Positions 50,614 through 63,205 of a stretch of DNA of 64,000 bases are shown in pieces. Position 1 is the first letter of the stretch; every line of letters begins with the position of its first letter. This stretch comes from Betaproteobacteria bacterium (GTDB taxonomy: Bacteria > Pseudomonadota > Gammaproteobacteria > Burkholderiales > SG8-39). A model generated the notes under the pieces. That model searched no databases. It worked only from the letters and a program-made list of their open reading frames with translations, and was not told the DNA's origin. Location: positions 1-64,000 of the forward strand of contig SHXR01000015.1 in NCBI GenBank assembly GCA_009693235.1, given 5' to 3'. A program made the position numbers and the translations under genes.

Positions 50614-52014
50614 TTAAATCGGCAGTTCGGGCAACGGCGGCAATTGCATCTCGATCGCTGCAGCCAGACGCAGCAGCGCACGCTCAACGCGCCCGGGTCC
50701 AGTGAGGAGGAGTCCACACGGCAAGCCATCGGACAACCCCATCGGCACACTGATCGATTCGAGTCCGCCGAGCGCACCGAAGCTGCAGAACACGCCGCTT
50801 GAATCGGCCACGACCGAGGGCGGGGTCTTCTCGAAGTTTCTCCCGGCAACGCGTGGCGCCACGATCGGCATGGTCGGACTCAGGATCAGATCGATGTCCT
50901 TGAACTGATCGGCGAGCCACGCGCGTGTCTTTGCACGCAATTGCTGCGCCTTCACATAGTGCGGCGCCGGGATGTAGCCACCGAGCCGCACGAGCGCCTT
51001 CAACTCGTCGCTATAGCGCTCACCCACCTTGGCGAAGCGTTCCTCATGGGCGACATGGGTCTCCACCAACGAGATCAATCGCAGTGCATTGAGTAGATCG
51101 ATCGCATCCGGCGGTTCGATATCGACCAGTTGCAGGCCCGCCCGCTCGGCAACTTTGCAGGCCTCGTTGAACCTTGCGCCGACACCGGGTGAACAGGTCG
51201 TCTCGATCCAGCGGCGCGGCACGCCAGCCCGTCGGAGCCCGTGCGGCGCAGAGAGCGTCGGCAGCGCTGCTTCCCACGGTTCGTTGCGCGTCGCAGGGTC
51301 CTTGGCATCAAAGCCCGCGATCGCATCGAGCATCGCCACCGCATCAAACACCGATGCAGCGAGGGGACCCACGTGATCCATCGACCAAGACACCAGCATC
51401 ACGCCATGTCGGCTGACACGACCATAACGCGGCTTGAGGCCAACCGCTCCGCAAAACGCAGCCGGTCGCCGGATCGAGCTACCGGTATCGGTGCCCAACG
51501 CACCGACACAAAGGCCCGCCCCCACAGCCGCGCCAGAACCACCGCTCGACCCGCCAGGAATGTGGCCTTGATGCCACGGGTTCAAGCACGCACCGAAGCG
51601 TTCATTGTTGGTGGTGACGCCGATCGCGAATTCATGCGTGTTGTGCTTGCCGAGGATGAGCGCACCCGCCTTGCGAAGCTTGGCGACAGCGGTCGCATCT
51701 TCATCGGGCACCCAATCGTCGAGCGCAGCAGAGCCGCCGGTGGTGCGCAGGCCACGCGTCTGGATGATGTCTTTGATCCCGATCGGCATGCCATGTAATG
51801 GTCCCCGCGAACGACCCGCATCGAGCTCACGCTGCAACGCGCTCGCCTCTTCGCGCAGGGAATCCGCGGCCACGAGCGTAATGAAGCTATTGATCGCGGG
51901 CTCGATTGCATTGATGCGCTTGAGCGCTGATTCAAGCAGTTGCGGGACGTTGATTGCACCCGCCCGCAGTGCCCGTGTCTGTTCACGCAATGATGACAGC
52001 GCGTGCTGGCTCAT
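50614..52014 (-). CDS. Amidase (amidase-signature family, AtzE/GatA-like)
   Basis: Amidase-signature enzyme of 466 residues. The Ser-cisSer-Lys triad is present: Lys81 in GMPIGIKDIIQTRG, the cis-Ser region GGSSGGSGAA near 154-163 and the nucleophile in ALGTDTGSSIRRPAAFCG near 172-189. It hydrolyses C-N bonds of amides. Eight bases upstream lies a small AtzG-like gene; in the cyanuric-acid pathway AtzG partners the related amidase AtzE, so a complex is likely. Last gene of a four-gene overlapping run. Substrate unknown. Confidence 0.92.
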   Translation of the reverse strand: MSQHALSSLREQTRALRAGAINVPQLLESALKRINAIEPAINSFITLVAADSLREEASALQRELDAGRSRGPLHGMPIGIKDIIQTRGLRTTGGSAALDDWVPDEDATAVAKLRKAGALILGKHNTHEFAIGVTTNNERFGACLNPWHQGHIPGGSSGGSGAAVGAGLCVGALGTDTGSSIRRPAAFCGAVGLKPRYGRVSRHGVMLVSWSMDHVGPLAASVFDAVAMLDAIAGFDAKDPATRNEPWEAALPTLSAPHGLRRAGVPRRWIETTCSPGVGARFNEACKVAERAGLQLVDIEPPDAIDLLNALRLISLVETHVAHEERFAKVGERYSDELKALVRLGGYIPAPHYVKAQQLRAKTRAWLADQFKDIDLILSPTMPIVAPRVAGRNFEKTPPSVVADSSGVFCSFGALGGLESISVPMGLSDGLPCGLLLTGPGRVERALLRLAAAIEMQLPPLPELPI

Positions 52015-52021
52015 GGGCTGC

Positions 52022-52213
52022 TCAAATGCCGGGATCGAGCGGACCGGACGGCAGATAGACCGGCCAGGGCCCGATCTTTTTACTCAAGGCGAGTAACGCC
52101 GGCAGCGCTGTCGCGATGCGATTGAGATGCGCCGCATCGTGCGGGCGATCGCCCGTGACCGCTGCGAGCGCGTTGACGTACGCGCGAATCTCCTCTTGCG
52201 TGGGCCCTGTCAT
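52022..52213 (-). CDS. AtzG-like small protein (DUF4089 type)
   Basis: A 63-residue protein with TQEEIRAYVNALAAVTGD and AAHLNRIATALPALLALSKK, two helices like those of AtzG/GatC-type amidase partners, then a proline-rich tail. AtzG forms a complex with AtzE and resembles GatC in GatCAB. It overlaps the hydrolase gene upstream by 4 nt and is 8 bp before the amidase, so the stoichiometric-partner idea is well supported by context. The family name rests on my reading of a short sequence. Confidence 0.7.
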   Translation of the reverse strand: MTGPTQEEIRAYVNALAAVTGDRPHDAAHLNRIATALPALLALSKKIGPWPVYLPSGPLDPGI

Positions 52214-53124
52214 CGCCTGCGCCCCGCGCCGCTCCGCTTCTTGGCCACCGGTGCCTTTTTCTTCGCAACGCTTTTCACGGTCACCGAGGCCGCCTTTTTC
52301 GACGGTGCCTTGGGTGCCAGGAACGATTGAATCTGCCCGGCCACCAGTTTCGGCTTCTCGACATGCGGGCTATGTCCGGCACCGGCAACGATCTTCAGTG
52401 TTGTCTTGCCGCCAAGGCCGGTGCGATAGGCCTCTGCATGCGAGCGCGGCACCATGCGATCGCTCTCACCCCAGATGAGCAGCGCCTCGCCTTTGAAGCG
52501 GCCAAGGCGCTCGCGCAGCTTGCGGTGATAAAAATACGGCGGCTTGAACCCCACCCGGGAGGCAAAGCGCATCGCCTTGAATTGGCTGAGCCCGCGTTCG
52601 ATGTCGGAACGCACGTCCGGAAACAACGCGAGCGCAGCCGGATCGTCGGCACGCGCAAATAAGAGACTGCGCAGCCCCTTGTACTCGATGCCGTTCTCCG
52701 GCTGGATCTGCCAGAAGAGATCGCCGATCGGTTGTCTGGGCACCATGAGGCCCGAGGCCCCAACCAATACGACACGCCCGACCCGCTCGGGATTGCGCAC
52801 CGCCAGTTCTGCCGCAATCCAACCGCCAAAGCAGGTGCCAACGATATCGACCTTGCCAAGTCCCAAAGCGTCCATCACCTGCAACGTATGGAAGATGACG
52901 TCATCGATCGTATCGATGCCTTCGTCTTCATCGGTCCCGGCACAGGCAGGGTGCGCCGGCGCGATCACGCGAAACGATTCCCCCAACGTTTCGTGAAACG
53001 GCAGCCAGCCGACGCTGCCTGCATGCACATCGGCAAAACCATGCAGGTAAAGAACTGGGCGTCCCTTGCCGATTTCCGCGACCGCGACATTGCGGCCGGC
53101 AACAGTCATGGTCCTGGTGGTCAT
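52210..53124 (-). CDS. Alpha/beta hydrolase with a basic C-terminal tail
   Basis: Alpha/beta hydrolase of 304 residues. Oxyanion region LYLHGFADVHAG near 27, nucleophile elbow GTCFGG near 96 with Cys rather than Ser in the central position, acid in LLIWGESDRMVP near 222 and His in AGAGHSPHVEKP near 249. Cys nucleophiles occur in dienelactone hydrolase-type enzymes, so activity is plausible. The last ~40 residues are an unusual Lys/Ala/Pro/Val-rich tail (SKKAASVTVKSVAKKKAPVA). It overlaps the LLM gene upstream and the AtzG-like gene downstream by 4 nt each. Substrate unknown. Confidence 0.85.
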   Translation of the reverse strand: MTTRTMTVAGRNVAVAEIGKGRPVLYLHGFADVHAGSVGWLPFHETLGESFRVIAPAHPACAGTDEDEGIDTIDDVIFHTLQVMDALGLGKVDIVGTCFGGWIAAELAVRNPERVGRVVLVGASGLMVPRQPIGDLFWQIQPENGIEYKGLRSLLFARADDPAALALFPDVRSDIERGLSQFKAMRFASRVGFKPPYFYHRKLRERLGRFKGEALLIWGESDRMVPRSHAEAYRTGLGGKTTLKIVAGAGHSPHVEKPKLVAGQIQSFLAPKAPSKKAASVTVKSVAKKKAPVAKKRSGAGRRR

Positions 53125-54368
53125 ACCGCCACCCTGCTGAATTCGGGCATCTCATTTAATTCCGGATAGTCACGGGCAAACATCGCCGCGGAATCACGCC
53201 GCAAGGCCGGCGCAACCTCGGTCGCGAAAAGGCGCATGCTTTTCCTCGCGAGTTCCGGGCGCATGTTGCCAAAGTGAAATTGAATCATCAGGTTGCCCAC
53301 ACCAGCCTGTTCGATCAAGGTCCACAACTTCTCGCGAACGGTTTTCGGACTGCCAATGGTGATCGATCCCCACTCTTCCAGTTCTTCCCAGGTATTCGCA
53401 TCGCCCAGCATCTTGGCACCGGGATTGGCGTTCTTCAAGAACTGCTCCCATGAACGCACCGAGGTCGATGGCACGCCGGCACCGAACGTGAGCGTGCGAC
53501 CTTCGCGACGCAAGTGGCCCTTCAAGGTATTTTTCAGGAAGTAGAACACGCCCTCATGCGCCTCTTCCTTCGCCTGCTCATCGGTTTCCGATACGTACAC
53601 CGACAGCAAAATGCCCATGCGGAACGGATGAAATTTGCCGCCATAGAATTTGATGATGTCCGCGAAACGCTGCGCGGCCTTGCGCGTCCCCGCCCCATGT
53701 GCGCGTGAGGAAAGAAAATAGTCGTAGCCGCGCTTTGCCACCTCTTCCATCGTTTCCACTGATAGTGCACCGGGAATCCAGATGCGTGGATGCGGACGCT
53801 GTTGCGGCAACGGCCACACGTTGGTGTAGCGAAGCGGGTAGTGATGACCTTCATGCGTAAAAGGACCGGACTCGGTCCAGCAACGATGAATGAGATCGAT
53901 CGCCTCCCAATATTGCGTGCGCGCTTGCGGCTGCGGGATGTCGTAGTTGAAGGCCTCCGGCCCGCCGCCCACCGCGAAGCCGGCGATCAAGCGGCCATCG
54001 CTCATTGAGTCCAGCATCGCGTATTCCTCGGCGATGCGCAGCGGATTCAAATGCAGCGGCAGCAGATTGCCCAGCACCACAAGCTTCGCGCGCTTGGTGC
54101 GCTGGGTAAGCGCCGCCGCGATGATGTTAGGCGATGGCATCATGCCGTAGATATTCTGATGATGTTCGTTCAGCACCAGACCATCGAAGCCAAGTTCTTC
54201 GCCATACACGAGCTGATCGATGTATTCCTGATAGAGGCCGCGCGTTTTTTCCCGGTCCCATAGTTTGTTAGGCACCGTCACCCATCCGGTGTCGTACTTC
54301 TCATCGAAATCCTTGGGCAAGTACGGATAGGCCATGAAGTGCCAACAGAACATCTGTACCGGATGCAT
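53121..54368 (-). CDS. LLM-class flavin-dependent monooxygenase
   Basis: Luciferase-like monooxygenase of 415 residues from the ATG at 54368, which has GGAG upstream. Signatures: WHFMAYPYLPKDFDEKYDTG at the start, GFDGLVLNEHHQN near 54, LVVLGNLLPLHLNPLRIAEEYAMLD near 84, SDGRLIAGFAVGGGPEAFNYD near 111. These FMNH2-dependent enzymes insert oxygen into sulfonates, nitrogen heterocycles or similar compounds (compare RutA, SsuD). It is first in a run with hydrolase, AtzG-like and amidase genes, and divergent from a TRAP transporter across 186 bp, implying a ring-opening and amide-hydrolysis route. Confidence 0.9.
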   Translation of the reverse strand: MHPVQMFCWHFMAYPYLPKDFDEKYDTGWVTVPNKLWDREKTRGLYQEYIDQLVYGEELGFDGLVLNEHHQNIYGMMPSPNIIAAALTQRTKRAKLVVLGNLLPLHLNPLRIAEEYAMLDSMSDGRLIAGFAVGGGPEAFNYDIPQPQARTQYWEAIDLIHRCWTESGPFTHEGHHYPLRYTNVWPLPQQRPHPRIWIPGALSVETMEEVAKRGYDYFLSSRAHGAGTRKAAQRFADIIKFYGGKFHPFRMGILLSVYVSETDEQAKEEAHEGVFYFLKNTLKGHLRREGRTLTFGAGVPSTSVRSWEQFLKNANPGAKMLGDANTWEELEEWGSITIGSPKTVREKLWTLIEQAGVGNLMIQFHFGNMRPELARKSMRLFATEVAPALRRDSAAMFARDYPELNEMPEFSRVAV

Positions 54369-54554
54369 CTTCGTCTCCATATTGGTATAGGAACTGCGCG
54401 GTATAGGAACTGTGCGATGCCCCCCTCCCGAAGATCGCATCACCATGGCGCAACCGACGTTTTCCCATTTTTCTCATGCACTCGTCAAGAGTATCGTATA
54501 GTTGGTCAAATAGCAGTCGTTGCCAATTCCATCCAATTGAGGGAGACATCAATC

Positions 54555-55547
54555 ATGACATTGCGATTGCCCGGCATTCGCCTTTTGCTTGGACTCATCG
54601 CGGGCCTCATCGGCGCTAGCGCCGTGGCGCAAACCAAGATCGACATCGCCATCTTCCATCCGGAGCGAAACGCCTGGAGCTTCGCGTTCAAATGGTGGGT
54701 GGATGAAGTCGACAAAGCCACCAATGGCCGCGTCAAATTCATGCCCGCTTATGCCGGATCGCTGGTCACCGCCAATGAGACATTGAAATCGGTGCGTGAT
54801 GGCGCGGTACCCGCCGGGTTCACCTCTGCTGCGGCCATGTCGGGAACGCTGCCTTCCCTTGCGTATCTTGAATCCATCGGTGGTATGCCAGGGGAAGTAC
54901 AGAAATTTTCTGACGCGGTCGCCGCGCTCCGCCCCGCGCTGGAGGAGGAGTTTCGCAAACAAGGTGTCGAATACCTGTGGCCACAGGGTTCAGGCCACTT
55001 GATTGTGTTATGCCGTGATCGCCTCATGCGCAATATTGCCGATTGGAAGGCCCGTAAAGTGCGTACTGCAGGGCGCTGGCAAGGCGAACAGCTCCTCTCG
55101 ATTGGCGCCTCACCGGTCAGTACCGACATGTCCGAGCAATACCTCGCGCTGCAAAATCGCACCATTGACTGTGCACTCAGCGTCTCCGTATTGGCCTCGG
55201 CTTTGAAGCTGCACGAAGTGGCACCGAAGATCACGGTGCTCGGATTACCGGTCAATCTCTCCATGTACCTGGTCAATCGCGCCGTTTGGGAGAAAATTTC
55301 CCCCGAAGATCGGGCTGCCATCAAACGGCTCGGCGCCGAAGCAGAAAAGCTTTCGGCAAAACACCTGCACGAAGTGCAATCGGAGGCACAAGCGATGATG
55401 AAAACCCAGAAGGCGGAAATCTACAGCCTCACCGCCGATGAAATCGCCGCCTTTCGCGGTGGCATCGATCCGGGCTTCAAGAAAATGGACGCGCAGGGCG
55501 GCGCCACCGGAAAACAGATCGCCGATACGGTCAAGCGCTTCTGGTAA
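54555..55547 (+). CDS. dctP: TRAP transporter substrate-binding protein DctP
   Basis: Periplasmic receptor of a TRAP importer, 330 residues from the ATG at 54555 with GGGAGA upstream. Signal peptide about 1-23 (LLLGLIAGLIGASAVAQ). TRAP features: FAFKWWVDEVDKATNGRVKF near 36, SGTLPSLAYLESIGGMPG near 98 and the conserved Arg segment ADWKARKVRTAGRW near 162, which normally contacts a carboxylate. It leads a dctP-dctQ-dctM operon facing the LLM/amidase operon, so the ligand is probably that pathway's substrate. Confidence 0.93.
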   Translation: MTLRLPGIRLLLGLIAGLIGASAVAQTKIDIAIFHPERNAWSFAFKWWVDEVDKATNGRVKFMPAYAGSLVTANETLKSVRDGAVPAGFTSAAAMSGTLPSLAYLESIGGMPGEVQKFSDAVAALRPALEEEFRKQGVEYLWPQGSGHLIVLCRDRLMRNIADWKARKVRTAGRWQGEQLLSIGASPVSTDMSEQYLALQNRTIDCALSVSVLASALKLHEVAPKITVLGLPVNLSMYLVNRAVWEKISPEDRAAIKRLGAEAEKLSAKHLHEVQSEAQAMMKTQKAEIYSLTADEIAAFRGGIDPGFKKMDAQGGATGKQIADTVKRFW

Positions 55548-55597
55548 CGGGTCCTTGGAGCGATGCCTGACGATGAATTTTTTGTTGCCGCAAAAAA

Positions 55598-56101
55598 ATG
55601 AGTGCTGACTGGTTGGAGTCGGCCAAACGATTCACCAGCATGGTGAACCGTTGGTTCCTCACCATCGCAGGCATCGTCATTGCAATCATTCTTGTCATCA
55701 TCACCTACGATCTGGTGCTGCGCAATGCGTTCGACGCACCGACGCTCTGGGCTCTCGATTTTTCGCGCTTCCTGTTGGTGTTTGCCGCATTCTTCGCCAT
55801 GGCGCCGACGCTCGAACACGGCCAGCATGTGACGGTCGATCTGGTCGAACAAATGATGAAGCCCGGCCCCAGGCGAATCATGCAGATCGTCGCGCTCGGC
55901 TTGGTCCTCATCTTCGCTGCGTTCCTGATGTGGCAGATCACCCGCACGACTATCGAAGCGTTCGAGGATGACAGTCTGTTTCCAACCGTCGTCCCGGTGA
56001 AACTCAAACACGTCTACTGGGTTGGGCCGCTTGGCATCCTCCAGTTCATCCTCACTGCCATCGTGCGGCTTGCCACCGCCATCCGCACGCTGGCCAGATA
56101 A
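55598..56101 (+). CDS. dctQ: TRAP transporter small permease DctQ
   Basis: Small TRAP membrane subunit of 167 residues with four hydrophobic segments. Features: ITYDLVLRNAFDAPTLWALDFSRFLLVFAAF near 36 and EHGQHVTVDLVEQMMKPGPRR near 78, as in DctQ proteins. It bridges the receptor and the DctM channel. It lies 50 bp after dctP and 10 bp before dctM. Confidence 0.92.
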   Translation: MSADWLESAKRFTSMVNRWFLTIAGIVIAIILVIITYDLVLRNAFDAPTLWALDFSRFLLVFAAFFAMAPTLEHGQHVTVDLVEQMMKPGPRRIMQIVALGLVLIFAAFLMWQITRTTIEAFEDDSLFPTVVPVKLKHVYWVGPLGILQFILTAIVRLATAIRTLAR

Positions 56102-56111
56102 GAAAGGCAGC

Positions 56112-57413
56112 GTGGATCCAATCGCCGGCTTTTCGATCTTCATGGTCGTGCTGCTCTTGTTCCTTGCAACCGGAACGCCAGTGGCGGTCGCCACCGGTCT
56201 GGTCGGCATCCTCGGGGTCTACCTGTTCCTGCCACTCGGTGCGATCACCCAGCTCGCGAGCATTGCCTATGCCCAATCGGCGAGCTTCGTGCTCGTCGTG
56301 GTGCCGCTCTTCGTGATGATGGGCGAGGCGCTCGCTGCCACCACGATTGGTCGCGACCTCTTTACCGCAGCGCAGATCTGGCTGCGCAAGTTGCCTGGCT
56401 CGCTTGCAATTGGCACGATCGCCGCCTGCGCGGTGTTTGGCGGCCCCTGCGGATCGAGCCCAGTGACGGCGGCGACCATCGGTTCGATGGCGATTCCGGA
56501 AATGATCAAGAAGGGCTACAAGCCGAGCCTTGCGTATGGCGTAACCGCGGCGGGCGGTACGCTTGGCATCCTGATTCCCCCCTCCATTCCGATGGTGCTT
56601 TATGGCGTGATCACCGAGACATCGATCGGTGATCTCTTCATTGCCGGCATCGTGCCGGGCATTTTGATGACGATCATGCTGGCGCTCACCGTGATGTATC
56701 AGGTTTGGCGCGATCCGTCGGTGGCGCCGCACGCACCGATCGAAACGGTCGAGGCCGAACGCTGGACCTCCTTGAAGGCGGTGATTCCCATCACGCTGCT
56801 TGGCGTGGCGATCATGGGCTCCATCTATGCCGGGATCGCAACGCCGACCGAAGCCGGTGCCGTCGGCGCGCTTGGATCGCTGCTGATCGCCTTGTGGCTT
56901 CGTGCCCTGAATCGCAAAGCGATCGTGCGCATTTTTGACAACACCTCGCGCACCACCGCGATGTTCGTATTGTTGATCGTAGCCGGACTCTTTAGTGCGT
57001 TCGTGTTGGCAAGGCTTGGCATTCCGCAGGCCACCGCCAAAATGCTGACGGGCCTCGACATCCCACCCTGGGTCATCCTCGTGCTTATCAATGTGCTTCT
57101 GGCAGTCCTTGGCATGTTCATGGACCCAATGAGTCTGATGGTGGTGATCGTGCCGGTGTTCTTCCCGGCGGTCGTCGCGCTGGGTTATGACCCGGTGTGG
57201 TTCGGCGTGATCATCACGATCAACATCGAAATTGCCGCCATCTCACCACCGGTCGGCTTCAATCTGTTCGTGTTAAAAACCGTGGTGCCGGACTCGAACA
57301 TGAAAGACATCATTCAGGGTTCGTTGATCTTCATCATTCCGCTCGCGTTGGGCATCCTTGGCCTCATCGCGTTTCCAGAGATCGCGCTCTTTCTGGTCAA
57401 AATGATGAAGTAG
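56112..57413 (+). CDS. dctM: TRAP transporter large permease DctM
   Basis: Large TRAP permease, 433 residues from the GTG at 56112 with GAAAGG upstream. It has about 12 hydrophobic segments. Signatures: PLFVMMGEALAATTIGRDLF near 63, GGPCGSSPVTAATIGSMAIPEM near 111, AAGGTLGILIPPSIPMVLYG near 145 and EIAAISPPVGFNLFVLK near 375. It uses a sodium gradient to import the DctP ligand. Ends with TAG, 4 bp from the convergent tupA. Confidence 0.95.
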   Translation: MDPIAGFSIFMVVLLLFLATGTPVAVATGLVGILGVYLFLPLGAITQLASIAYAQSASFVLVVVPLFVMMGEALAATTIGRDLFTAAQIWLRKLPGSLAIGTIAACAVFGGPCGSSPVTAATIGSMAIPEMIKKGYKPSLAYGVTAAGGTLGILIPPSIPMVLYGVITETSIGDLFIAGIVPGILMTIMLALTVMYQVWRDPSVAPHAPIETVEAERWTSLKAVIPITLLGVAIMGSIYAGIATPTEAGAVGALGSLLIALWLRALNRKAIVRIFDNTSRTTAMFVLLIVAGLFSAFVLARLGIPQATAKMLTGLDIPPWVILVLINVLLAVLGMFMDPMSLMVVIVPVFFPAVVALGYDPVWFGVIITINIEIAAISPPVGFNLFVLKTVVPDSNMKDIIQGSLIFIIPLALGILGLIAFPEIALFLVKMMK

Positions 57414-57417
57414 CGCT

Positions 57418-58245
57418 TCACGCGCCGGCCTGCGTCGCGTTGGGCGTGAAAAGCGCCTCACCGTTGATCTTGAAACTGCCGATTGCGTTCTGGCCGTCGT
57501 CTGCAACGAGCCAATCGATGAATGCCTGGGCATCGGCCTGCTTGACATGCGGCTGCCTGACCGGATTGACGAGGATCACGCCATATTGATTGAAGAGACG
57601 CTGGTCGCCTTGTACCAGAATCGCCAGTGCACCACGATTCTTGAACGAGAGCCACGTTCCCCGATCGGCCAGAATGTAGGCGTCCATCGATGAAGCGGTG
57701 TTCAAGGCTGGGCCCATCCCCTGTCCGGTGTCACGATACCAAGCCCCCTTCTGTTTGGCGATGTCGATGCCCGCTTGCGCCCATAACGCGAGCTCTGCAG
57801 TGTGGGTACCACTGCGATCGCCACGTGATACAAAAGCGGCCTGTGCGCTTTCGATCGCCTTCAATGCCGCTGCCGCATCGCGTTGCCTACCGATCCGCGC
57901 CGGGTCCGTCTGCGGCCCGATCAGCACAAAATCGTTGTACATCACCGGAATGCGCTTTACCCCATGCCCCTCGGCGACAAACTTCTCTTCCAATCCACGC
58001 GCATGGACGAACACGACATCGGCATCACCGCGGCGCGCCAAGTCGAACGCCTGCCCAGTTCCCAGTGCGACCACACGTACCTGAATCGCCGTCTTCTTCT
58101 GAAAGGCAGGCAGGATGTGGCCGAACAATCCGGATTGTTCGGTCGAGGTCGTGGAGGCGACCGTGATAAAACGCTGCTGCGCTTGCGCGCTGCTCAATAG
58201 CAGACTGATCGTGAGTAACCACCCGCACATCCGTCGGATTACCAA
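57418..58245 (-). CDS. tupA: Tungstate ABC transporter substrate-binding protein TupA
   Basis: Periplasmic oxyanion receptor of 275 residues with a signal peptide (WLLTISLLLSSAQA). The TupA signature ASTTSTEQSGL near 30, GTGQAFDLARRGDADVVFVHA near 62 and SRGDRSGTHTAELALW near 141 form the tungstate pocket. The TTG start at 58245 overlaps the tupC stop and has GGAGAG upstream; an ATG five codons later is possible. Last in the order tupB-tupC-tupA. Preference for tungstate over molybdate is inferred from the family. Confidence 0.9.
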   Translation of the reverse strand: MVIRRMCGWLLTISLLLSSAQAQQRFITVASTTSTEQSGLFGHILPAFQKKTAIQVRVVALGTGQAFDLARRGDADVVFVHARGLEEKFVAEGHGVKRIPVMYNDFVLIGPQTDPARIGRQRDAAAALKAIESAQAAFVSRGDRSGTHTAELALWAQAGIDIAKQKGAWYRDTGQGMGPALNTASSMDAYILADRGTWLSFKNRGALAILVQGDQRLFNQYGVILVNPVRQPHVKQADAQAFIDWLVADDGQNAIGSFKINGEALFTPNATQAGA

Positions 58246-58973
58246 GGGAGCTCTCCATTGATGAATTCAGCGGCTTCGCTCGTTGCCGGATGTTTGAAGA
58301 AACGTTCCGCCGGGCTGCACTCGGCGATTCGTCCACGATGGATGAACAGGATCTCGTCACCCATCCGATGCGCCTGTCCAAGATTGTGCGTGACCATAAT
58401 GATCTTCGTCCCCGCCTGGTGCATCGCCTCGATCACCGCCTCGATTTCATGCGTGGCACCGGGATCAAGATTAGCAGTGGGTTCGTCGAGGAATAGCACT
58501 TCTGGTTCAATGGCCCAGGCACGTGCCAGCGCCAAGCGCTGCTGCTCGCCGCCAGATAGCACCCGCGCCGAATGCCGCGCGACCGAGACGAGACCCACGC
58601 GCTGGAGCGCCGCATGGGCCCGATCGAGATGCTCCGCGCGTGGATAGCCTGCCGCCTGCAATGCATAGACGATATTCGCTAGCGCAGATCGGCGCAGCAT
58701 CACCGGCCGCTGGAATACCATGGCTTGGCGTCGCGGCGTCCCAGGCGCTTTGGTCGCTGGGGTCGAATTCCATGCCACGCGACCGCTCGAAGGGGTTAGC
58801 AACCCGTGACAAAGGCGCAGCAGCACACTCTTGCCCGCACCATTCGGACCCACCATGAGAGTCCGCGTGCCGGCAGCGAATTCGACGGTGATGCCATCGA
58901 TAATACGTCGATGACCGGCGACGAAGACGACATCGCGAAGTTGCAGCGGCAACAGCGATGGAGCATCCATCAT
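58239..58973 (-). CDS. tupC: Tungstate ABC transporter ATPase TupC
   Basis: ATPase of 244 residues starting at ATG 58973, overlapping the tupB stop as ATGA. Walker A VGPNGAGKSVLLRL near 43, Q-loop AMVFQRPVML near 85, signature LSGGEQQRLALARAW near 141, Walker B VLFLDEPTANLDP and switch His VTHNLGQA. The frame extends far upstream but that part lies opposite tupB sense and is spurious. It supplies energy for tungstate import with TupA and TupB. Confidence 0.9.
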   Translation of the reverse strand: MMDAPSLLPLQLRDVVFVAGHRRIIDGITVEFAAGTRTLMVGPNGAGKSVLLRLCHGLLTPSSGRVAWNSTPATKAPGTPRRQAMVFQRPVMLRRSALANIVYALQAAGYPRAEHLDRAHAALQRVGLVSVARHSARVLSGGEQQRLALARAWAIEPEVLFLDEPTANLDPGATHEIEAVIEAMHQAGTKIIMVTHNLGQAHRMGDEILFIHRGRIAECSPAERFFKHPATSEAAEFINGELPW

Positions 58974-59674
58974 CCGTAACGCCGCTCCGCGGCTTCCTTG
59001 ATCACATATGCCCCGGCGTTTAGCGCCAACACCACCGCAACCAAAACGATCCCAAGCGCCAAGGCAAGCGGCAGATCCCCTTTGCTCGTTTCGAGCGCGA
59101 TAGTGGTGGTCATCACCCGCGTCACGCCGTCGATGTTCCCACCCACGATCATCACCGCACCGACTTCGGCCGCCGCCCGACCGAAACCCGCCAGCACGAT
59201 GGTCAGCAGTGAAAATCGCAAATCCCACAATAGCGTGATGCTTGCACCCATCCGCGTGACGCCGAGCGAACGCAGCTGCTCGTGGAACTCTTGCCACGCG
59301 TCTTCGACCACCTGCCTGGAAAGGGCCGCAACGATTGGCACGACCAGAATCGTCTGGGCAAAGATCATCGCGGTCGGCGTAAACAACAATCCCATCGAAC
59401 CAAGCGGCCCAGCTCTCGATAGCATCAGATAGACCAGCAGACCGACCACGACCGGCGGCAAGCCCATCAACGCGTTCAGCGCAACGATGACGCTGCGACG
59501 TCCGGGGAATCGACCGACCGCGATCGCTGCGCCCAAGGGCAAGCCGAGCACACAGGCGAGGAATACCGCCGAGAGGCTCACCTCAAGACTCAGACCAACG
59601 ATGCCAAAGAGCTTCGCATCGCCTGCGATGAGCAGCTCCAAGGCATCGGTCGTTGCTGCGGCCAAACCGTTCAA
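58970..59674 (-). CDS. tupB: Tungstate ABC transporter permease TupB
   Basis: Permease of 234 residues with about five or six hydrophobic segments and an EAA-like loop FHEQLRSLGVTRMGASITLLW near 138. Motifs VSLSAVFLACVLGLPLGAAIAVGRFPGRR and ALMGLPPVVVGLLVYLMLSRAGPLG are typical of TupB. The start is TTG at 59674. First gene of a three-gene overlapping operon. No ModE-type site could be recognised in the 217-bp gap upstream. Confidence 0.9.
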   Translation of the reverse strand: MNGLAAATTDALELLIAGDAKLFGIVGLSLEVSLSAVFLACVLGLPLGAAIAVGRFPGRRSVIVALNALMGLPPVVVGLLVYLMLSRAGPLGSMGLLFTPTAMIFAQTILVVPIVAALSRQVVEDAWQEFHEQLRSLGVTRMGASITLLWDLRFSLLTIVLAGFGRAAAEVGAVMIVGGNIDGVTRVMTTTIALETSKGDLPLALALGIVLVAVVLALNAGAYVIKEAAERRYG

Positions 59675-60295: not shown

Positions 60296-61165
60296 TTACA
60301 GGGGAAAGTACTTCTCCAACCACTCCGCCACCACATGCCAAACGCGCTGGTTGCCTTCGGCCAGCATGAAATGGTCGGTGTCACCAAACAGGTGGAGATC
60401 GGCAGGCATGCCGGCGCGTTTGAACATTTCGATCGATTGCTCGGTCGGTGTGACCGAATCCACCGAACTGTGCAGCAGCAATAGCGGGCGCGGCGCGAGC
60501 TTTGCCACGACATCTTCGGCGCGGAAATCGAACATGCTCTGTGCCGTTTCGGCGGTGAAGGCTTGAATGGACCCCGGCACGATCTGTCGCTTGAGGCTAG
60601 GCGGAATCGGCACGATATCCATCCTTGGCACCAATAGCGACTGCCCGGTCCGTGCGCGGTGGCGCTTCCCTTCTTCCAACATCGCAGTGAATTTGGCCCA
60701 CGCCTCGGGTCCTGGATGTTGCCCGCGAAATTTTCGTTCGCCATGCCCCCAGCCACCGGATGAAATAACGCAGGAGAATCGCTCGTCAATGGCGCCGGCA
60801 TACACGGCTACGGCTGCGCCAAAACTGGAACCGATTACGCCGATGCGTGTAGCCTGCACGGCGGGATGGCCATTCAGAAACGTGTAGGCATCGCGGGTGT
60901 TTTGCACCTGATCCAGGCAAATGAGATTGCCACGCTCCCCTTCGCTCTCGCCACAGCCGCGCATGTCGAAACGCATCGTCACATAGCCCTGTGCTTCCAA
61001 TGCAGCACAGGGACCCAGAACATTCTCCGCCCCTTTGTTGCTGCCAAAGCCGTGCAAGACGAGAAAAGCAGGACGTCGCTCACCGACTTGCATATTGGCG
61101 GGTGTTCGGACGACGCCCGCCAAGCGCAGACCCTGCGATTGAAAACTGATGTTCGATTCGCTCAT
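60296..61165 (-). CDS. Alpha/beta hydrolase
   Basis: Alpha/beta hydrolase of 289 residues: oxyanion motif LVLHGFGSNKGAENVLG near 33, FDMRGCGESEGERGN near 64, nucleophile elbow GVIGSSFGAAVAVY near 109, acid region LLLLHSSVDSVTPTEQ near 225 and His in GDTDHFMLAEG near 260. This is the peptidase S9/dienelactone hydrolase-like type. It overlaps the VOC gene upstream by 4 nt (ATGA), so they are translationally coupled and probably act in one pathway. Substrate unknown. Confidence 0.87.
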   Translation of the reverse strand: MSESNISFQSQGLRLAGVVRTPANMQVGERRPAFLVLHGFGSNKGAENVLGPCAALEAQGYVTMRFDMRGCGESEGERGNLICLDQVQNTRDAYTFLNGHPAVQATRIGVIGSSFGAAVAVYAGAIDERFSCVISSGGWGHGERKFRGQHPGPEAWAKFTAMLEEGKRHRARTGQSLLVPRMDIVPIPPSLKRQIVPGSIQAFTAETAQSMFDFRAEDVVAKLAPRPLLLLHSSVDSVTPTEQSIEMFKRAGMPADLHLFGDTDHFMLAEGNQRVWHVVAEWLEKYFPL

Positions 61166-62172
61166 GAAGACGCCGACGCGCGTGCCGTCTTGAATGGAAC
61201 CTGGCCAACACGTCCCGGTTCGGCGGCGCCCTTGGCCGCGGGGAGCGAGGGACGCACTTTGCCGTCATCACGCTGCCGGATGCCATCGACCAGATGCCAT
61301 TCGCTGAAGCGATTGGTGCGGTAGTTGTTGGGCTTCCAGGCATCGGTCACATAGTCCGCATCGCAGAAATATTCGACCGCCCCGCCCAAGGGATTCCTGA
61401 AGTACCAGAAATAGGCCGACGAAACCGGATGGCGCCCGGGACCGACGTCGGTCGCCCAACCGCGTTTGGAAAATTCGAGGCCGCCGCCGAATACCTCGTG
61501 GATATCGCTCACCTCGAATGCGATGTGATGAATATCGGTCTTGCCGGTGCGACTCTTCACGAAGAAAAGATTGTGATGCTCGCTCTTTTCCGTCCAACGC
61601 AGGAACACCCCCGCACCGCCGACATAGCGATCCGATAGCCGAAAGCCAAGCCGCTTGCGATAGAACGCCTCGGCCACGCGGGTATCGGACACGAAGAAAA
61701 CGATATGGCCCATCTTGAAGGGCTGCGCGTTCTTATAGACTGGGCTCACCTTGTCGATGCGCGTTCGGCTACCCGGACCATTCCACGCGGTGCCGGCGCT
61801 CGGTGTTTCGCGGCGATGCTTCCAGACGCGAAAGCCGACGTTGATGCCGCTGTCATCGATAGCGTGAAGGGTACCGTCGGTATCGACCGACACATCACGG
61901 TCGCGCGCCAAATCCTCGCCGATGGCCTTCAACGCGCTTGCATTGACCACACCGAAGATCACCTCACGAAAATTTGACCCGCCCTCCAGGCGCGGCCGAA
62001 GCGTCTTCGCGGCTTCCGGCCGGACTACGATCCGACTGCCAATGCCGGTTTCGAAGATGATTCCCGCTCGCGTATCAGCAACTTTCTTCAGACCCCAGTC
62101 GCCGAAAAATTTGCGCGCCGTCTTGAGGTCGGGCGAGCCATACACAACGGTGTCGATGCCGACGATCGCCAT
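61162..62172 (-). CDS. VOC-family (extradiol dioxygenase-like) protein
   Basis: A 336-residue protein with two vicinal-oxygen-chelate domains: the first (about 1-115) begins GIDTVVYGSPDLKTARKFFG, the second (about 145-275) begins FKMGHIVFFVSDTRVAEAFY. Metal ligands typical of extradiol dioxygenases appear in the second domain: His in KMGHIVF, His in TDIHHIAFEVSD and a late Glu in GGAVEYFCDADY. It is a good candidate for a ring-cleaving or related dioxygenase, with the coupled hydrolase downstream acting on the product. Copy B of the repeat and an IS3 element lie just upstream, so its promoter may be affected. Confidence 0.82.
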   Translation of the reverse strand: MAIVGIDTVVYGSPDLKTARKFFGDWGLKKVADTRAGIIFETGIGSRIVVRPEAAKTLRPRLEGGSNFREVIFGVVNASALKAIGEDLARDRDVSVDTDGTLHAIDDSGINVGFRVWKHRRETPSAGTAWNGPGSRTRIDKVSPVYKNAQPFKMGHIVFFVSDTRVAEAFYRKRLGFRLSDRYVGGAGVFLRWTEKSEHHNLFFVKSRTGKTDIHHIAFEVSDIHEVFGGGLEFSKRGWATDVGPGRHPVSSAYFWYFRNPLGGAVEYFCDADYVTDAWKPNNYRTNRFSEWHLVDGIRQRDDGKVRPSLPAAKGAAEPGRVGQVPFKTARASASS

Positions 62173-62293: not shown

Positions 62294-63205
62294 TTATGCA
62301 GCCATGGCCAGTTTCTGCTTCGGTGTAAATCCACCCAGAGCCATATTAGGACGGTCATTGTTATATGACCACATCCACCGGGTGGCAAACTCTTGAACCT
62401 CTTCTAAGCTTGACCAGTAATATTGTGACAGCCATTCGTAGCGCACGGTTCTGTTAAATCTTTCAACATAAGCATTTTGCTGTGGGTTGCCTGGCTGAAT
62501 GTATTCAAGCCTGATTCCCCATTCTGCAGCCCAGTTTTGAATGGCAGCGCTGATGTATTCAGGGCCATTGTCACAACGAATAACCTGAGGCTTGCCGCGC
62601 CAAGAAATCATCTGCTTAAGCTCTCTGATTACCCGCTCCGCTGGCAATGAGAAGTCCGCCTCCATGCCAATGGCTTCTCTGTTGTAGTCGTCAATCACAT
62701 TGAACAACCTGAACGTTCTACCGTCTTCAAGTTGGTCATGCATAAAGTCCATAGACCAAACCTGATTGATTTCCAGTGGCACTGTTAAAGCCTCTGGCTT
62801 CTCACGGATCAACCGCTTGCGAGGTTTGATCCGCAAGTTCAGCTCCAACTCCTTGTAGACCCTGTAAACACGCTTGTGGTTCCATTTGAAGCCCTTCAGG
62901 TTGCGCAAACACAGATAGCAAAGGCCAAAACCCCAGTTGCGGTTGTTGTCCGTCAGCTTGACCAGCCAAGTTGCAACTTCTTCATTCTCTGCATCGAGCT
63001 TGCGCTCGTAGCGGTAACAAGACTCACTGATCCTAAAGGCCTGGCACGCCACCCGGATGCAAATGCCGCGCTCCTTGACTGCTTTGATGGCCATCTCCTT
63101 GCGTCGGGATGCCTCACCACTTTTTTTCAAGCGCCTCCGACACGATCTCGGCTTTGAGCTTCCCCTCAAGATACATCTTCTTGAGCCGCTGGTTTTCTTC
63201 TTCAA
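62294..63205 (-). CDS. IS3-family transposase OrfB (integrase catalytic part)
   Basis: Catalytic half of the IS3 transposase: HTH_21-like start ([20 protein letters not shown]), then the DDE domain with Asp in [10 protein letters not shown] near 150, Asp in [11 protein letters not shown] near 210 and Glu in [20 protein letters not shown]. It is made as an OrfAB fusion by -1 frameshifting at the A7G run (63120-63127), where OrfA reads GAA AAA AAG and OrfB continues AAA AGT. The first ~25 residues of the open frame before the slip site are not used. The element looks intact. Confidence 0.88.

Follow-up and report, generated by a model that had tools for sequence, protein, structure and literature searches.

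A widespread luciferase-like monooxygenase-hydrolase pair, with a TRAP importer and a local amidase pair in one betaproteobacterial genus

We analysed a 64,000-nucleotide stretch, hereafter the window, comprising positions 1 to 64,000 of contig SHXR01000015.1 from a Betaproteobacteria metagenome-assembled genome (MAG; 3.9 Mb, 106 contigs, 79% complete). On its minus strand four tightly packed genes follow one another, encoding a luciferase-like flavin monooxygenase (LLM), an alpha/beta hydrolase (ABH), a small protein (ORF3) and an amidase-signature hydrolase (AMI), with a tripartite ATP-independent periplasmic (TRAP) importer encoded opposite. We found that LLM and ABH form a widespread, little-studied pair, and that the AMI part of the operon is a local addition. 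The explanation we favour, with somewhat less than even confidence, is a catabolic unit that would import, oxygenate and hydrolyse its substrate, to which removal of an amide may have been added in this genus. This type of system is itself known; what is new is the combination of genes, together with an uncharacterised, mostly Cys-type LLM-ABH pair.

The LLM-ABH pair

The LLM gene (53121..54368, minus strand; 415 aa; PF00296, E 7.7e-44) likely starts at the ATG at 54368, with in-frame ATGs at 54380 and 54446 also possible; analyses ran on the stretch to 54374, two codons upstream of 54368. Its stop codon (53123-53121) overlaps the ABH start at 53124 by 4 bases, ATGA, and ABH occupies 52210..53124 on the same strand (PF00561, E 1.2e-22). 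A contig scan for LLM returned 55 loci, 45 of them with at least 60% LLM identity. Among the 41 judgeable loci (at least 60% LLM identity and at least 900 bases downstream of LLM), ABH lies directly beside LLM in 37, the exceptions being L040, L064, L068 and L069; L040 holds a 73% LLM without a neighbouring ABH, and its separate, more distant pair was not counted. LLM and ABH meet in an NTGA overlap at 29 of these loci (28 chosen from the ORF table for a suggested overlap, all positive, plus L033). In the remaining eight, one base is shared (L039), short gaps intervene (L052, L061, L062, L065), the start is unclear (L053) or ABH comes first (L063, L067). The pair spans Alphaproteobacteria, Candidatus Binatota and MAGs labelled Deltaproteobacteria. 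With a core so widespread, the pair is a broader and more ancient feature than the initial annotation of this operon had recognised.

LLM passes the PF00296 gathering score (150.7 bits vs 27.9), which places it in the luciferase-like monooxygenase superfamily, and lies under the curated cut-off of every one of the 20 NCBIfam families listed for it at E≤0.001. It falls short of the NtaA/SnaA/DszA branch (TIGR03860; 20.8 bits vs a cut-off of 279.7), and a RutA model, which we presume the NCBIfam library to hold, is absent among those 20 families. The folds nearest to its AF2 model (pLDDT, the predicted local distance difference test, 82.6) are RslO1 and 2i7g (Z 35), luciferase (Z 33) and 3,6-diketocamphane monooxygenase (3,6-DKMO; Z 31.5), while RutA, at Z 26.7, comes under RslO1, luciferase and type II Baeyer-Villiger monooxygenase (BVMO; Z 31-35). 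Since RslO1, luciferase, DKMO and RutA share one fold, Z ranks likeness and proves no reaction. The operon encodes no flavin reductase; two PF01613 flavin reductase genes are present elsewhere in the MAG.

By motif alignment, the nucleophile position of ABH is Cys98, in GTCFGGW, with Asp222 and His251, in agreement with the Cys-type hydrolase initially annotated. Of the 37 ABHs from the group with at least 60% LLM identity, 28 have Cys here, 6 have Ser and 3 have Gly (L034 kept and L021, from the same genome, left out; L074 included; L034 and L074 are both Cys). More distant LLM-ABH pairs, 23 in number, have Ser throughout except for a single Cys. The Gly-type ABHs are those of L039, L051 and L065, and His251 is replaced by Asn in L039 and L066. 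In a tree, the near-group ABHs form one clade with the window ABH (support 100/100). Over the 61 rows of this tree, no fewer than 5 changes of the Cys label are required, so that Cys has given way to Ser or Gly on more than one occasion. The Cys type mostly marks one ABH clade, and with the residue varying, it may not always act as nucleophile. ABH also carries a basic, K/A/R-rich C-terminal tail of ~33 residues (52210-52311), which is present in L033 and absent in 5/5 other relatives looked at.

Flavin reductase genes accompany several of the more distant pairs. They occur in the order LLM-ABH-flavin reductase-catA, the last a catechol dioxygenase gene, on two Rhodococcus plasmids, as flavin reductase-LLM-ABH in Caballeronia, beside the pair in Mycobacterium, together with CoA transferase genes next to an ABH-LLM pair in Agrobacterium, and with hydantoinases on Pukyongiella p4. 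In NGR234b (L124:2288-11629), an LLM relative sits among genes for an ABC importer, an FMN reductase and an isochorismatase-family hydrolase. We also surveyed the nearest two ORFs on each side of the pairs, excluding LLM and ABH and keeping ORFs of at most 650 aa (139 of 250 ORFs, of which one was set aside by hand and 138 were scanned). These fell into 123 families, and among the 25 commonest, which include TctC in 12 members and NMT1 in 5, there was no constant third partner of LLM-ABH.

Gene order, importer and amidase pair

Within the genus, a sister species (G280, locus L033) keeps the whole block: a vicinal oxygen chelate (VOC) protein, a second alpha/beta hydrolase (ABH2), TRAP, LLM (97% identity), ABH, ORF3, AMI, a MetE-like gene and an APC permease gene, the last cut by the contig end. 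The public record of L033 is titled Klebsiella pneumoniae, yet the contig belongs to the window's genus and the label looks wrong. Ratios of nonsynonymous to synonymous divergence (dN/dS) against L033 were 0.017 for LLM, 0.091 for ABH, 0.138 for ORF3 and 0.043 for AMI (whose dS of 2.4 is saturated), and 0.036, 0.107, 0.041 and 0.061 for DctP, DctQ, DctM and MetE, respectively. The range over all eight genes, 0.017-0.138, exceeds what chance would give, and purifying selection acts on the four operon genes between these two species. At E≤1e-90 LLM was found in 3/98 genomes of the family (its own, G280 and G180), and at E≤1e-60 in 3/200 genomes of the order. G180 (locus L034) keeps TRAP-LLM-ABH, with identities of 67% for DctP, 60% for DctQ, 80% for DctM, 87% for LLM and 56% for ABH, and a glucose-methanol-choline (GMC) oxidoreductase gene adjoins the pair in place of ORF3-AMI. 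Where 2.5 kb or more of sequence follows LLM (38 loci), ORF3-AMI lies next to the pair in L033 only. The initial annotation had named an order unique to this strain as what would speak against its proposal; the order recurs in a second species of the genus and was found nowhere else in the loci scanned, which is nearly that case.

The TRAP genes, on the plus strand, are DctP, a solute-binding protein (54555..55547; PF03480, E 3.7e-35), DctQ, the small permease (55598..56101; PF04290, E 4.4e-23), and DctM, the large permease (56112..57413; PF06808, E 7.7e-87), for which we take the GTG at 56112 as the start and analysed a stretch beginning one codon earlier. All three exceed their Pfam gathering scores (122.1 vs 23.4, 82.1 vs 28.3 and 292.2 vs 23.8 bits), and they diverge from LLM across the 186 bases (54369..54554) between the LLM and DctP start codons, bearing out the importer first described opposite the operon. 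Arg170 of DctP lies in KVRTAG and is, we assume, the carboxylate-binding arginine. A guess at the ligand was dropped, the best solved relatives of DctP (4pgn and 4nap, ~60 bits, presumably binding indole-type acids) being too distant; a literature search on this point turned up no paper. TRAP genes adjoin the pair in L033 and L034 as well, with LLM and DctP as divergent neighbours in both, and TRAP, ABH and LLM form one co-directional run in L063 and L067, two Alphaproteobacteria; L069 has TRAP genes plus an ABH several kb away. L039 shows a faint likeness to DctM beside its pair (27% over 179 aa) and was not counted as TRAP-linked.

At the 3' end of the operon, ORF3 (52022..52213, minus strand; 63 aa) shares a 4-base ATGA overlap with ABH at 52213-52210 and is separated by 7 bases from AMI (50614..52014, minus strand; PF01425, E 2.5e-103), so the four genes are indeed tied by short junctions, as first reported. 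ORF3 is 75% identical to its L033 counterpart, and neither has a Pfam match up to E 10; a PF13318 (AtzG-like) search of its own genome at E≤10 matched one place, which was not ORF3. Against a profile of 12 AtzG-like proteins ORF3 scored 4.6 bits, equalled by 10/2000 shuffles and reached by 2/361 small window ORFs (ORF3 among them), and the L033 counterpart 1.1 bits, equalled by 175/2000 shuffles and 14/361 small window ORFs. Its model, built on a two-sequence alignment, shows two helices and a tail (pLDDT 70), and a fold search gave no match at E≤0.001. ORF3 is AtzG/GatC-like by position and size only; its layout suggests that it may work as an AtzG does, but by the PF13318 search it falls outside the family.

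AMI carries Lys81, Ser157 and Ser180 at what we take, from the amidase family motif, to be the usual triad places. It scores under the cut-offs of all 25 listed of 26 NCBIfam families, including the AtzE models (TIGR02715, 275.9 vs 425.75 bits; PRK09201, 284.4 vs 461) and, slightly higher, GatA (300.6 bits) and indoleacetamide hydrolase (299.4). The motif G[TS]DTNGS[IV]RVPA is present in 7/7 amidase ORFs that a looser motif had picked from 14 AtzG-like loci; AMI, 30-35% identical to those seven, lacks TNGS and reads GTDTGSSIRRPA at that place. The AtzE-AtzG pair of cyanuric acid degradation resembles ORF3-AMI in that the gene of a small protein immediately precedes that of an amidase-signature enzyme. 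According to the available text of PMC6219798, AtzE needs AtzG to be soluble, and GatCA is the presumed origin of AtzEG; by analogy, ORF3-AMI could behave likewise, as a GatCA-derived pair. Unlike AtzE-AtzG, however, AMI misses the AtzE cut-offs and the motif, and ORF3 goes unseen by the AtzG-like model; on these grounds we rejected AtzE/AtzG identity, and with it the AtzEG-like pair of the initial annotation. At E≤1e-110, AMI was found in 1/274 genomes of the class, its own. No LLM lies alongside nitrile-hydratase and other plasmid amidases, 38-40% like AMI, in the stretches examined.

Reactions and competing readings

From these genes, their families, conservation and coupling, we infer the reactions and substrate as follows. 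TRAP would import a carboxylate. LLM, with FMNH2 (reduced flavin mononucleotide) from a reductase encoded elsewhere, would insert one oxygen beside a carbonyl, in chemistry resembling that of type II BVMOs, whose fold it has. The Cys-His-Asp centre of ABH would then open the resulting ester or lactone. In this genus only, ORF3 and AMI, treated as a GatCA-like pair by their layout, would cleave an amide of the product and free ammonia or an amine.

Several lines of evidence argue for import, oxygenation and hydrolysis: the adjacency of LLM and ABH in 37/41 loci, their NTGA overlap in 29/37 and the single ABH clade; TRAP beside the pair in L033, L034, L063 and L067; an LLM closer to 3,6-DKMO than to RutA; flavin reductase or aromatic genes with related pairs in Rhodococcus, Caballeronia and Agrobacterium; the two PF01613 reductases in the MAG; and two described systems. 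The available text on Sphingobium AntQ-1 (PMC9836352) describes an LLM and a contiguous alpha/beta hydrolase (sphantq_4473/4474), upregulated on anthraquinone, for which Baeyer-Villiger oxidation followed by lactone hydrolysis is proposed; it shares with the window a catabolic LLM contiguous with an alpha/beta hydrolase and, unlike the window, mentions neither an amidase pair nor TRAP. The available text on Caenibius tardaugens (PMC12239570) has the pdc LLM carry out Baeyer-Villiger oxidation of progesterone to testosterone acetate, and describes regulators and a BVMO alongside and no coupled hydrolase; here the substrate is a steroid, and the likeness is one of description. The diketocamphane monooxygenases of the CAM plasmid, FMN enzymes with a separate reductase, are alike in fold to the window LLM at ~21% identity in structural alignment. 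The four-gene set itself was not found in the literature searched, whose coverage of subscription papers is poor and makes this weak evidence.

Other observations weigh against this reading. RslO1 and luciferase, with other chemistry, outscore DKMO in the fold search, and active-site residues are poorly conserved within the LLM family (available text of PMC4631483); together these leave the reaction unfixed by the LLM fold. Ser in 6/37 and Gly in 3/37 at the ABH nucleophile are odd for a covalent esterase, and kinship to the AntQ-1 pair is putative. The MAG contains 35 matches to DctM, counting fragments, and AMI itself is one of 14 places there that match its sequence at E≤1e-30, so adjacency to TRAP or AMI could be chance; a single TRAP adjacency says little, and the co-directional runs say more. 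Finally, both substrate and product are putative.

The best-surviving rival, which we consider doubtful, is the opening of an N-heterocycle or cyclic amide suggested by the initial annotation, in which LLM would open the ring by the nitrogen, ABH would remove an N-formyl or N-acyl group and the amidase would free ammonia. The trigonelline, pyridine, vitamin B6 and nicotinate routes follow this logic, and in the trigonelline route (TgnA-E) an LLM opens an N-heterocyclic acid, with a hydrolase downstream. In its favour is L063 (3367-13311, a Xanthobacteraceae MAG), where an amidase and two RidA-family genes, which recall the Rut pathway, flank the TRAP-ABH-LLM run, with a GntR regulator. The L063 amidase is divergent (29% identical to AMI); it and that of L033 are the only recognisable AMI homologues in the 55 loci, and both belong to the five TRAP-linked loci. 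Distant LLM relatives also sit with the hydantoinases of Pukyongiella p4 or the isochorismatase-family hydrolase of NGR234b. With amidase and RidA neighbours in L063, the substrate may yet contain nitrogen, though two AMI cases are few. Against it, LLM scores under the NtaA/SnaA/DszA cut-off, its 20 listed families include no RutA model, its fold is nearer to RslO1, luciferase and BVMO than to RutA, and ORF3-AMI is missing in 37/38 loci. Near an Arthrobacter LLM is an aldehyde dehydrogenase gene, with an amidohydrolase gene further on, which settles nothing on the pyridine route; no paper on pyr genes was among those listed by the literature searches. The Rut pathway likewise combines an LLM, an alpha/beta hydrolase and an amide-hydrolysing step; Rut identity is unsupported, ABH reaching 43.9 bits vs 238.5 for RutD (TIGR03611), no RutA model being listed for LLM, and AMI presumably belonging to another amidase superfamily than RutB. 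The operon matches neither the Rut nor the cyanurate route, as first noted.

An undescribed nitrogen-releasing route, in which the coupled LLM and Cys-type hydrolase would open a TRAP-imported nitrogenous acid, the hydrolase perhaps acting non-covalently, and a GatCA-like pair distinct from AtzEG would finish, seems unlikely to us. Rather unlikely, too, is a passenger role for ORF3-AMI, in which a general amidase pair, with no bearing on the substrate of LLM-ABH, was acquired downstream of it in this genus. Such a capture would agree with its absence beside the pair in L034, despite an 87% LLM and a kept TRAP, with the 14 AMI-like places in the MAG, and with the basic ABH tail in the same genus, which suggests that the 3' end of the operon was remodelled; the 4-base overlap, the 7-base gap, the order kept in both species and the low dN/dS of ORF3 and AMI speak against it. 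Least probable, and by our estimate quite improbable, is other LLM chemistry (hydroxylation, epoxidation or dealkylation), the product of which ABH would process without covalent catalysis: 7BIP, the nearest fold to the window LLM, is also the nearest structure to PCX02514, and the available text of PMC11354265 states that 7BIP could form an epoxide and reports that PCX02514 hydroxylates poly(acrylic acid); the ABH nucleophile position also varies among Ser, Cys and Gly, with His replaced by Asn in L039 and L066, but Cys or Ser is kept in 34/37 near ABHs and the constant LLM-ABH pairing argues for a hydrolysable product.

Flanking genes and significance

Two syntenic neighbours, also on the minus strand, lie beyond the TRAP genes. 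The VOC protein (61162..62172; PF00903; HpaD model 73.2 bits vs 321.4), whose solved relatives are extradiol dioxygenases, is 92% identical in L033, there near TRAP genes, and its gene shares a 4-base overlap with that of ABH2 (60296..61165, minus strand; 91% identical in L033). Under the import-oxygenate-hydrolyse reading, this extradiol-dioxygenase-like gene and ABH2 would fit an aromatic skeleton. ABH2 resembles the UilS lactonase; it and the VOC protein are both far under curated cut-offs. Between DctM and the DUF488, ABH2 and VOC genes sit TupA/TupB-like tungstate ABC genes (57418-59674), under curated cut-offs; L033 is without them, having a single DUF488-like gene between DctM and ABH2. 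A transposase-like ORF (62294-63205; integrase-core look, judged by eye) lies near the window end.

LLM enzymes are numerous, and assigning them is difficult. An LLM coupled to a hydrolase from Binatota to Rhizobiales, in several cases with an importer, offers a compact handle on the substrate. If AMI takes the product of the pair, the operon would show how a nitrogen-releasing step is attached to an oxygenative core, and would be a second GatCA-like recruitment beside AtzEG.

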